A stretch of DNA of 64,000 nucleotides from Methanosarcina sp. MTP4 (GTDB taxonomy: Archaea > Halobacteriota > Methanosarcinia > Methanosarcinales > Methanosarcinaceae), in the NCBI RefSeq assembly GCF_000970045.1, contig NZ_CP009505.1:248001-312000 (forward strand), given 5' to 3'. The stretch's first letter is position 1, and every line of letters starts with the position of its first letter. A model generated the notes under the pieces. It worked only from the letters and a program-made list of their open reading frames with translations, was not told where the DNA came from and did no database searches. Positions 28,424 to 31,527 of this stretch are shown one piece after another. A program made the position numbers and the translations under genes.

Positions 28424-29278
28424 ATGCTTAAAGAATTACAGAAAAAAAGAACCGATTTAAAGGCTATTTCTGAAGAATCCAAAGAAAAGAGAAATACCTT
28501 AAATGCGGAAGCCAGCGCTCTTGCAGCTAAGAGGAATGAGCTGAACAAGAAGACCAAGGATCTCATTAATGAAGCCCAGGAACTCAAAGATTCCAGGGAT
28601 GAGATCAACGAAAAAGTTAGCGAATACAAGAATAAGCGTGACGATACCAATGCTAAGGCAAACGAACTGTTTGCAAAGGCAGACTCTATCCGAAAGCAGA
28701 ATAATATGGGCGGTCCCTCTATCAAAATGCTCCGAAAGGACATCGACCGGCTTGAGTTTGCCCAGCAGACCGAAGTGCTGAGCACAAGCAAAGAGAGGGA
28801 ACTCGTTGGCAAGATCACTCAGCTCCAGAAGCAGTACCATGTTAAGAAGGTTCAGCTTGAGAACAACGTTGAACTGAAGGACATCCTTGATGAAGCTCAG
28901 CAAATCCGGGACGAAGCTTCGGAGTACCACAAGGAACTGGCAGAGTATGCAAAGCAGGCTCAGGAATTCCATGAGAAGATGATTGCCGCCTTCAAGGAAG
29001 CTGACAGGACCAGGGCAGAGTCGGATATCGCTCACAAGGATTTCGTTAAAGCCCAGGAAGCAGCTGACGAGCAGCACAAGATTTTCATCAATGCCCAGAA
29101 AGAAATTCGGGAAATTGATAAGGAAGTTTTCAAGCTTAAGAAGAAGGACAAGGACGGCAAAGGTCGCCCGGCAAAGGCTGAACTTCAGAAAGATGCTAAG
29201 GACATCTTTGAAAAATTCAAGGGTGGAGCCAAGCTTACCACTGAAGACCTCATGACTCTCCAGAGATCTGGTCTTTAA
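28424..29278 (+). CDS. Archaeal coiled-coil protein (COG1340 type)
   Basis: A 284-aa, very charged, almost entirely helical protein; nearly every heptad of residues 1-250 fits a coiled coil rich in Lys, Glu, Ala and Leu, without signal peptide or membrane span. A short Gly-containing break around NNMGGPSIKML (about 90-100) interrupts the coil, as in the archaeal family grouped with phosphoserine phosphatase genes. GAGG-type signal precedes ATG 28424. Probably a structural or nucleoprotein scaffold of the cytoplasm; why it accompanies serB is unknown. Confidence 0.75.
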   Translation: MLKELQKKRTDLKAISEESKEKRNTLNAEASALAAKRNELNKKTKDLINEAQELKDSRDEINEKVSEYKNKRDDTNAKANELFAKADSIRKQNNMGGPSIKMLRKDIDRLEFAQQTEVLSTSKERELVGKITQLQKQYHVKKVQLENNVELKDILDEAQQIRDEASEYHKELAEYAKQAQEFHEKMIAAFKEADRTRAESDIAHKDFVKAQEAADEQHKIFINAQKEIREIDKEVFKLKKKDKDGKGRPAKAELQKDAKDIFEKFKGGAKLTTEDLMTLQRSGL

Positions 29279-29409: not shown

Positions 29410-29630
29410 CTCGGTTTTTCTCCGTGTTTTTCCCTCTTCTTTCTCTCTGTTCTCCGTGTTTTCCCTCTTCTTTCTCTCTGTTCTCCGTGTTTTCCCTCTT
29501 CTTTCTCTCTGTTCTCCGTGTTTTTCCCTCTTCTTTCTCTCTGTTCTCCGTGTTTTTCCCTCTTCTTTCTCGGTTTTTCTCCGTGTTTTCCCTTTTCTTT
29601 CTCTCTGTTCTCCGTGTTTTTCCCCGGTTC
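29410..29630. repeat. CT-rich imperfect tandem repeat, unit about 31 bp
   Basis: Blocks built from TTCTTTCTCTCTGTTCTCCG and GTGTTTTCCCTC recur about seven times with small length changes. All three plus-strand frames stay open through it, giving spurious Phe/Ser/Leu-rich ORFs that I do not accept as genes. The rest of 29279-29781 is AT-rich, with a TATA-like TATAAATTTATA at about 29711-29722 for the next operon. Confidence 0.85.
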
Positions 29631-29781: not shown

Positions 29782-30459
29782 ATGAATTCAACGGTGTTAA
29801 CAGTTATCGGCATCTTAATCGCGATTTTTATGTTTGGGATTAAAACCGGACTTGGATGCGGCTTTTCAAATGCAGGACCTCGAAAAATAATTGCGGTTGC
29901 AGGCAGTTATTTCCTGCTCTCTGTGCTTGTGGGAAGCGTTGTGGGAAATTTCAGCATGGAAAGTTTTGAGAACATTTCCGGTCTCGGGCTGGGGGTTCAT
30001 GTCCTGCTTTCTCTGCTCCTCATCGGAACCGGGATATATACCCAGAAGAAGTGGAACGCCGGGAGGGATGTTTCAGGGCACACTTTCCTTGTCCTTTCCA
30101 TGCCCTGCCCGGTCTGCCTTGCAGCCCTGACTTTTTGCTGTATGCTCCTTGCAGCTAGCCTTGAGCTCAGCGGGCTGAAAATCGGGCTACTTGTGGGGAC
30201 TGCTTTTTGCATTTCGGTCCTGGTTTCTTCTTTCGGCTTCAAGAGACTCGGAAAAACCCCTGAAAGCCTGGGAAGCGTAATGCTGCTTCTTGGCATCTAC
30301 TATCTGCTAGGAGCCATGATCATACCGGCTTACATGAAAACAAAGCAGCTGAACCTGGTAGCTCTCTCGGGAGACGGGGCGGGGATCGTTCCCCTTTCTT
30401 TTTCTGCAATGGTGATTCTGGGCGGGTTCTTGCTGGGAAATGTGAGGTCAAATCAATGA
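29782..30459 (+). CDS. DUF2162 membrane protein, first gene of ExbB-linked module
   Basis: A 225-aa protein with about six membrane spans. Span 1 ends with GIKTGLGCGFSN (Cys26), and a second conserved Cys group lies at the start of another span, MPCPVCLAALTFCC (Cys109, 112, 119, 120). The layout, with Cys/Pro at span ends, recalls LysE/CcdA-type transporters, in line with my memory of DUF2162 as a putative transporter. Its stop overlaps the ATG of the ExbB-like gene (ATGA), so the two are translationally coupled. It may be the channel or substrate-binding membrane part of a proton-driven complex; substrate unknown. Confidence 0.75.
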   Translation: MNSTVLTVIGILIAIFMFGIKTGLGCGFSNAGPRKIIAVAGSYFLLSVLVGSVVGNFSMESFENISGLGLGVHVLLSLLLIGTGIYTQKKWNAGRDVSGHTFLVLSMPCPVCLAALTFCCMLLAASLELSGLKIGLLVGTAFCISVLVSSFGFKRLGKTPESLGSVMLLLGIYYLLGAMIIPAYMKTKQLNLVALSGDGAGIVPLSFSAMVILGGFLLGNVRSNQ

Positions 30460-31232
30460 GTATAGCAGGTCCCCTTTTTAGCATAATGTATACTTTTTCA
30501 TCAGCTTTGCTCTATCCGGTGATAATAGTCCTGCTCCTGCTGGTCCTTTCTTCTCTGGGCCTTATAGGGGAATTTTTGTCGGAGTATTCAAAAAGGCACA
30601 GGGATTCTCGGAAACTGGAAGAAGACTGCATGCAGCTCCGAAGCACGGTGAAAAATTCGAGGTTTCTGGACGCCTCAAATACCCTCCGGGAAAGCAGGCA
30701 GAACCGGATGGTTACTTCCTTTTCCAGGGATGCTGCACCCTATCTTGAGCAAAAGCGGTTTTATGCGATCGAAAAACTTGCAGCCGAATATGAGATAAGG
30801 ATGTCCGGGCAGCTCGAAAAGACAAAAATCCTGGCTACCATTTCTCCCATGCTGGGGCTAATGGGTACCCTTATCCCCCTCGGCCCTGCCCTTATCGGCC
30901 TCTCACAGGGAGACATTGCCACCCTTGCAAACAACCTGATGATTGCCTTTGCTACTACCGTTGTCGGGCTGTTTGCCGGGAGCGTCGGGTATGTCCTGAC
31001 CCAGGTCAGGAGGCGCTGGTACTGGGAGGACATGTCAGACATTGATTACATTCTGGATGCTCTGGAAGAGGGCTTCAAGGAACCCTCAGAGGACGGAAGA
31101 AGAATCGAGCAAAACGAGCTAACCCCGTCCCTGACTGCGGAGGAAGAAATACATGAGAAAAAGCAGACGTTACCGGCGAACCGGGCTCCGGCAGGGTCCG
31201 GAAGACCAGAACCCGTTGACAGGAGTTGCTAA
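30456..31232 (+). CDS. MotA/TolQ/ExbB-family proton channel subunit
   Basis: A 258-aa protein with one N-terminal span (about 17-40), a cytoplasmic helical region, and two spans at about 124-150 and 162-185. The diagnostic ILATISPMLGLMGTLIPLGPAL stretch is present in two parts (ILATISPMLGLMGTL at 125-139) together with IATLANNLMIAFATTVVGL, as in ExbB/TolQ/MotA proton channels. The C-terminal 70 residues are charged and polar and overlap the next gene by 80 nt in another frame. Archaea have no outer membrane or TonB, so what this energiser drives is open. Coupled to DUF2162 upstream by an ATGA overlap. Confidence 0.85.
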   Translation: MSIAGPLFSIMYTFSSALLYPVIIVLLLLVLSSLGLIGEFLSEYSKRHRDSRKLEEDCMQLRSTVKNSRFLDASNTLRESRQNRMVTSFSRDAAPYLEQKRFYAIEKLAAEYEIRMSGQLEKTKILATISPMLGLMGTLIPLGPALIGLSQGDIATLANNLMIAFATTVVGLFAGSVGYVLTQVRRRWYWEDMSDIDYILDALEEGFKEPSEDGRRIEQNELTPSLTAEEEIHEKKQTLPANRAPAGSGRPEPVDRSC

Positions 31233-31527
31233 CCTCTTCGATGTGGCAATGGTTTTTTCAGTCGCGCTGCTCGTTGCCCTGGTCATGTCTTACCAGCTGC
31301 CCGAACTCTTGAATCCTGAAGAGGATATCACAATCGTAAAAAACCCGGGAGCTCAGGACATGAAAATCATTATCAAGGAGAAAGGGCAGCCGATTGAAGT
31401 CCTGAACATGACCGACAATATAGGTGGAGGCACAGGAGAAGCCCTTGGGACAGCCTACAGGCTGGCCGATGGCAGGGTGATCTATGTCCCGGAAAGCGAA
31501 GAAGAGGGGAATGAAACCTCCGGGTGA
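31153..31527 (+). CDS. DUF2149 protein, probable ExbD/TolR/MotB-like partner
   Basis: A 124-aa protein with a basic N terminus (residues 1-20), one membrane span (about 28-48) and an exported tail. The span begins NLFDVAMVFSVALLVAL, with Asp30 placed like the single proton-carrying Asp in the ExbD/TolR transmembrane helix. The tail has a strand-rich IIIKEKGQPIEVL segment and ends near GTAYRLADGRVIYVPE. The DUF2149 name is from family memory; the ExbD assignment is my inference from topology, the Asp and the neighbouring ExbB-like gene. ATG 31153 lies inside the ExbB-like gene, 80 nt before its stop. Confidence 0.75.
   Translation: MRKSRRYRRTGLRQGPEDQNPLTGVANLFDVAMVFSVALLVALVMSYQLPELLNPEEDITIVKNPGAQDMKIIIKEKGQPIEVLNMTDNIGGGTGEALGTAYRLADGRVIYVPESEEEGNETSG

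Follow-up and report, generated by a model that had tools for sequence, protein, structure and literature searches.

Three overlapping genes, T (DUF2162), U (MotA/TolQ/ExbB) and V (DUF2149), may form the membrane half of a four-part, proton-powered metal-scavenging machine, a model that we hold at roughly even confidence. They lie in the 64,000-nucleotide stretch analysed here (the window, positions 248001-312000 of the 4.2-Mb Methanosarcina-like genome G000). The constant fourth component is an exported CobN/ChlH-type chelatase, S, with the class I chelatase fold (CobN/ChlH/HmuS superfamily), which had gone unseen in the original prediction. Its relatives are enzymes that load vitamin B12, chlorophyll and heme with metal or strip the metal from them. 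That prediction described the unit as an ExbB/ExbD-like energiser locked to DUF2162; this was incomplete, as the constant partner is the exported CobN-like S and DUF2162 can be exchanged.

The model is built on gene content, linkage, co-occurrence, predicted topology, residue conservation and an exchange of motors. From these we infer a physical complex with energy transfer and with removal, rather than insertion, of metal, and we put forward a role for T and a class of substrate. Outside the membrane, the central cleft of S would catch a tetrapyrrole that carries a metal, or a comparable metal chelate. U, probably as a pentamer, and V, probably as a dimer, would form an ExbB/ExbD-type stator in which protons passing over the position-30 carboxylate of V set V in motion, and this movement would reach S through the short outside domain of V and power the chelatase cycle of binding, ring distortion and metal release. 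The role of U-V would parallel that of the ATP-fuelled AAA+ ring CobST/ChlID of cytosolic chelatases, to which an exported protein is inaccessible. T would bring the freed metal or tetrapyrrole inward, its cytoplasmic-side cysteine cluster serving as the exit or hand-over site.

The T-U-V locus and the U and V proteins

The features of the locus are as follows.

29782..30459, + strand: T (DUF2162), 225 aa; PF09930, E=7e-64
30456..31232, + strand: U (MotA/TolQ/ExbB), 258 aa; PF01618, E=1.3e-10
31153..31527, + strand: V (DUF2149), 124 aa; PF09919, E=4e-35
30456..30459, + strand: T/U overlap, ATGA start/stop, 4 nt
31153..31232, + strand: U/V overlap, 80 nt, out of frame, kept in orthologues L011, L049 and L050

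The reading of these as three tightly overlapping genes was confirmed for the ORFs and for both overlaps, all on the + strand. The ATGA at the T/U junction couples translation of the two genes. At the second junction a C-terminal extension of U of about 50 aa runs into V, and the same extension is present in the three orthologues. Because the T-U-V order is repeated in tens of other archaeal genomes, the arrangement is far beyond chance. The 80-nt overlap was seen only in the window-type lineage (the window, L011, L049 and L050); at the paralogous T-U-V locus U stops upstream of the V start.

The genes upstream of T-U-V in Methanosarcina and Methanolobus are, by eye, of housekeeping type (fibrillarin/Nop5-like, eIF2-gamma-like), and neighbouring genes were dropped as a substrate clue because these are uninformative. 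A riboswitch search near the window locus found none. An ArsR-type HTH gene adjoins many T-U-V loci; the single copy that was inspected is free of cysteine. Between T and the coiled-coil gene before it (DUF7121, 28424-29278), the window holds about 6.5 tandem copies of a 32-bp C/T-rich unit (29418-29625), an array that has no equivalent at the same place in the sister genome G002 (L049).

The middle gene had been called a MotA/TolQ/ExbB channel, and this identification held. U scores 41.6 bits against PF01618 (cut-off 22.9), matches TolQ/ExbB chains in the PDB with E=2e-7 to 1e-5, and has predicted spans at 19-37, 125-143 and 163-181, with pore-lining Thr138 (span 2) and Thr168 (span 3) invariant in 32/32 sequences. 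Judged by sequence, U is a genuine MotA/TolQ/ExbB homologue and shares its family with the ExbB-ExbD, TolQ-TolR and MotA-MotB stators; G000 encodes no MotA/ExbB homologue besides its two U copies.

V is predicted to have an Arg-rich cytoplasmic N-terminus, a single span at 28-46 and an outside tail of about 75 aa. The LFDVAMVF motif that the original prediction compared with the proton-binding site of ExbD/TolR is present, and its Asp30 is among the very first residues of the predicted span. This position, whose lack of conservation would have spoken against the comparison, carries a carboxylate in 114/114 homologues (Asp in 113, Glu in 1). Like ExbD, V is an N-in single-span protein, its span-start Asp being in register with ExbD Asp25; unlike ExbD it gives no match to the ExbD/TolR HMM (PF02472; hhalign probability 1.3%), has a shorter outside domain and has no TonB/TolA partner. 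The proposal of V as an ExbD counterpart is thus upheld for its single span and invariant carboxylate and fails as to family: we rejected V as a plain ExbD on the lack of a PF02472 match and the hhalign result, and kept the comparison as an analogy, by which V is proposed to be an ExbD-like rotor or transducer. An AF2 model of V from 22 sequences gave a small all-beta outside domain at pLDDT 57, too poor for use.

The exported chelatase S

In most other archaea S, a protein of 1,400-2,500 aa, is encoded directly before or after T-U-V. The order T-U-V-S is the commonest layout, found at 41 of 80 named loci and at 33 of the 50 with full flanks, in a set that covers methanogens, ANME-1, -2 and -3, Ethanoperedens and a few Planctomycetota and Hydrogenedentota; S is missing from the vicinity of 11 T-U-V loci. 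The survey of neighbouring genes, for which the original prediction had named chelatases as an example, turned up a chelatase-like partner, and the guess of metal or corrinoid uptake is likewise supported. S proteins beside T-U-V contain the full CobN/Mg-chelatase domain PF02514 (E=0 and 6e-301) with the HxGTHG motif. At the N-terminus they are predicted to have a signal peptide or anchor, and at the C-terminus a span followed by a short basic tail; on these grounds S would be located outside the membrane.

The window itself has its S elsewhere. Of the six CobN-family genes in G000, five stand in tandem and the sixth is solitary, at 844762, 566 kb from the window T-U-V. The lone protein (G000:C1:844762-848220) is 80% identical to the S that adjoins the orthologous T-U-V in the sister genome G001, against 32-35% for those other G000 S proteins with which it was compared. 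Judged by this match, it is the cognate S of the window T-U-V, which has become separated from it, out of reach of any search limited to the window. The five tandem exported CobN-like genes (G000:C1:3855572-3884179; L031, L032) lie downstream of the second T-U-V, at about 3.88 Mb, and two of them flank a truncated DUF2162 copy (L032:7472-7846); up to 16 CobN candidates occur in some Methanosarcina relatives (G107).

The strongest rival to the chelatase machine, though an unlikely one in our judgement, sees in T-U-V an importer that uses protons to bring in whole tetrapyrroles (corrinoid, heme or F430 breakdown products), with S as its outside binding protein. In the literature HmuTUV, encoded by the related bacterial operon, has been published as a putative inner-membrane heme permease and is depicted as a putative transporter of heme, and btuS mutants of B. 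fragilis continue to release protoporphyrin (PMC6460266). Some exported S proteins that have lost the catalytic His are also still kept beside T-U-V: it is missing from eight, and at the Methanoculleus and Methanofollis loci examined the sole S seen is one of these. Against an importer, the catalytic His of HFGTHG is kept in 87/95 exported S proteins, with variation in the flanking letters, and the corresponding His538 of HmuS is required for de-chelation. In addition, the T slot can be replaced or empty while S-U-V stay linked, which places T outside the core of the machine.

The His-less proteins form a clade in which HFGTHG has become an xFTIFTS-like sequence (L031:5060-9652, L058, L103, L110, L113, L125, L164 and L177). 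These paralogues are possibly non-catalytic subunits.

Co-occurrence and exchange of motors

S, T and V have been gained and lost together across relatives. Among 40 related genomes T is present in 27, V in 29 and CobN in 28, and 11 have neither V nor CobN. Counting 156 genomes of the same class that are at least 90% complete, we found DUF2149 together with CobN in 102, DUF2149 only in 3, CobN only in 11 and neither gene in 40; a Fisher test without correction for common descent gives p=1.6e-23. In the 11 CobN-only genomes the listed CobN ORFs reach at most about 1,310 aa, the size class of the cytosolic proteins.

Cytosolic CobN (L040, L139-L150) has no signal peptide or anchor and no spans and measures 1,209-1,321 aa. 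It was verified in 8 of the 40 genomes, and every one of these eight encodes an AAA+ ChlID/CobST, within about 6 kb on the same contig in six; the ChlID/CobST of G027 is broken and lies 30 kb away, and that of G033 is on another contig. By contrast, in the 16 genomes where exported S is the only verified form, a fused ChlID/CobST was found in 0/16, and 12/16 gave no match at all, the remaining four having a split ChlI/ChlD pair. G000 has no TIGR02442 (ChlID/CobST) match, and T. lovleyi, a bacterium with an exported S, is reported to lack CobS/CobT (PMC3403914). Split ChlI/ChlD-like AAA+ pairs were seen in G005, G006, G007, G014, G015, G018, G020, G025, G028 and G036; as they also occur in CobN-less methanogens (e.g. 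G006, G014, G025, G028 and G036), the split pair must serve another partner. Compared with CobNST cobaltochelatase and ChlHID magnesium chelatase, with which it has the PF02514 domain and HxGTHG in common, S is exported, the AAA+ CobST/ChlID is absent and ExbB/DUF2149 is present instead. A tree of 106 S proteins places all exported S apart from the cytosolic ones with support of 0.98.

We tentatively suggest, at somewhat below even confidence, that an ExbB-DUF2149 stator has replaced the AAA+ ATPase as the motor of those class I tetrapyrrole chelatases that work on the outside of archaeal as well as bacterial cells, and that HmuU/HmuV are the motor of HmuS and not a TonB energiser. The published proposal for Bacteroidota is the converse, that HmuU/HmuV energise an outer-membrane TonB receptor (PMC10100974, PMC12583661). 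Transferred to U-V, this proposal is extremely improbable and, for archaea, already excluded barring an unrecognised TonB-like client. The premise of the original prediction that archaea have no TonB stood up, with TonB receptors, the HmuR type among them, in 0/40 related archaeal genomes and ExbD (PF02472) above the cut-off in 0/40. In T. lovleyi, moreover, a separate canonical ExbB-ExbD-TonB set lies directly downstream of T-U-V-S. Both observations argue that U-V is not a TonB energiser.

The main counter-evidence to the motor model comes from three sides. Purified B. theta HmuS removes heme iron in vitro with NADH and without U/V (PMC12583661), and so the motor is not strictly needed for de-chelation. 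The second is the existence of His-less S proteins, and the third that of U-V pairs beside S-layer and CARDB proteins. These last pairs, which lack T and S (L039, L040, L043, L068, L078, L089 and L093), adjoin surface proteins, namely S-layer (PF07752), CARDB or PQQ-propeller proteins with C-terminal anchors; L068, L078, L089 and L093 are from Methanosarcinaceae, mostly Methanolobus. They suggest that the U-V proton motor has been recruited to other clients outside the cell. Taken further, U-V could be a general envelope motor for anchored exported clients (S-layer, CARDB, beta-propeller), of which the chelatase is merely the commonest, and its work may be mechanical remodelling. The U-V-only loci (L040 aside) and the three genomes with DUF2149 and no CobN fit such a motor, which we nonetheless regard as highly improbable, since in archaea and bacteria the majority of U-V copies are linked with S and the presence of S predicts V. 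Further points against the chelatase-motor model are the 11 T-U-V loci without a neighbouring S, the lack of a recognisable transporter fold in T and, from a poor model, the lack of a discernible ExbD fold in the outside domain of V.

Bacterial relatives, the T protein and the substrate

A described relative exists in the hmuSTUV operon of Bacteroidota (PMC10434189, PMC10100974, PMC12583661), and the claim of an undescribed system was half right in this respect. HmuU and HmuV match the archaeal U and V profiles with E of about 1e-62 and 1e-41, the DUF2149 proteins of the window and of Prevotella/Bacteroides (HmuV) being 47% identical. In hmuYRSTUV, too, these clear homologues share an operon with an exported, doubly anchored, CobN-like HmuS. 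The archaea differ in having no HmuY/HmuR and no outer membrane; HmuT is not detectably related to DUF2162, and archaeal S has (L/I)DNDD(F/Y)xQYLGG in place of the LSLDHxxEFMGG of HmuS.

What is already known comprises the individual parts, the bacterial operon and the comparison of HmuU/V with ExbB/D. Archaeal CobN/HmuS homologues have been called unclear in function and complete hmu operons absent (PMC12583661), and M. barkeri has been stated to have none of the other operon genes (PMC10846266). In fact the partner genes occur widely among methanogens and ANME archaea, where they are annotated as DUFs. In the searchable literature (subscription papers and preprints lay outside the search) we found no description of the complete archaeal cassette, of the split between exported and cytosolic CobN with its motor exchange, or of the idea that HmuUV need not serve TonB, and in the literature searched no archaeal function for DUF2149 or DUF2162. 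Because archaea have no outer membrane, their S-U-V offers a natural way to test the function of HmuU/HmuV, and it favours proton-powered work, done on the chelatase or its cargo, over a role confined to TonB. The proposed motor would offer a testable answer to how an outside enzyme without ATP drives a reaction that costs its cytosolic cousins many ATP, and the cassette is a possible route of Co/Ni/Fe salvage, unrecognised so far, in methane-cycling archaea.

In plasmid records S adjoins U-V in Prevotella, Bacteroides and Aureibacter (hmu operons) and in Runella, Trichlorobacter, Azospirillum, a Pseudoalteromonas, a Diaphorobacter and a Comamonadaceae bacterium. The T slot is filled by DUF2162 in Trichlorobacter, by the unrelated HmuT in Bacteroidota and by a UreH-like protein in Runella, and is empty elsewhere. 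Given this variability of the T slot in bacterial operons, S-U-V is the conserved core and DUF2162 the exchangeable part. The order TonB receptor-DUF2162-ExbB-DUF2149-CobN on Trichlorobacter (Geobacter) lovleyi pGLOV01/pSZ77 has the archaeal gene order and the same DNDD motif; it differs from the archaeal cassette in its outer-membrane receptor, its two B12 riboswitches and a T without the first Cys.

T is predicted to span the membrane seven times. The PCPxC motif (Pro-Cys109-Pro-x-Cys112) is present in 85/85 sequences, His73 in 84 and Cys26 in 81, and Lys21 and Asp96 are invariant in the homologue alignment. The original prediction of Cys pairs at span ends was right about their position and needs correcting as to side: the positive-inside rule puts Cys26, Cys109 and Cys112 where spans 1 and 4 meet the cytoplasm, and not outside. 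In an AF2 model (pLDDT 72) helix 4 is broken at 107-109; against PDB folds the model gave no significant match, the best being a ZIP zinc transporter at E=0.37, which we do not count as evidence. We propose that T is a metal or tetrapyrrole permease. T was also compared with HmuT, to which no sequence relation emerged (DUF2162 HMM E=0.2-6; hhalign 4.6%), and with UreH/NicO, again with no sequence relation found.

The invariant PCPxC in a broken helix, together with the almost fully conserved Cys that ends helix 1, could instead point to a CcdA/DsbD-like thiol or electron carrier that serves S, for example by reducing bound metal before extraction, with U-V in a separate structural role; HmuS does require reduced heme (PMC12583661). 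We consider such a carrier improbable. For T, neither Pfam nor PDB sequences gave a match to CcdA/DsbD, nor was there a significant one by fold (the fold comparison using a model of moderate quality), the first Cys is lacking in T. lovleyi T and PCPxC in HmuT, and the T slot of Runella is occupied by a UreH-like, nickel-type transporter.

For the four-part machine, the substrate is probably a corrinoid or Co/Ni tetrapyrrole rather than heme, given that archaeal S lacks the heme motif and that the nearest bacterial cassette lies under B12 riboswitches. HmuS strips heme of its iron through His538 of HFG(T/A)HG and His1209 of LSLDHxxEFMGG (PMC12583661). At the second site, the sequence found in most archaeal S is the same as in the B12-linked S of Trichlorobacter and nearly that of the Ni-linked S of Runella. 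The S tree groups the archaeal majority with S from Trichlorobacter, Runella, Azospirillum and other proteobacteria (0.99), apart from the Bacteroidota heme HmuS. Two cobalamin (B12) riboswitches lie just upstream of the T. lovleyi operon, a cobalamin riboswitch and nikR lie near S/U-V in Azospirillum, and Ni-hydrogenase maturation genes surround the Runella locus. A role in iron supply is also possible, as CobN-like proteins of M. barkeri vary with the iron and sulfur source (PMC10846266).

By annotation, and as a lead only, the cassette can also be likened to Pseudomonas aeruginosa PA1922-PA1925, which encode a TonB receptor, a CobN-like protein, a protein annotated as ExbD and a small hypothetical protein, and which are Zur-regulated with 45-147 fold induction under zinc starvation (PMC4542158).
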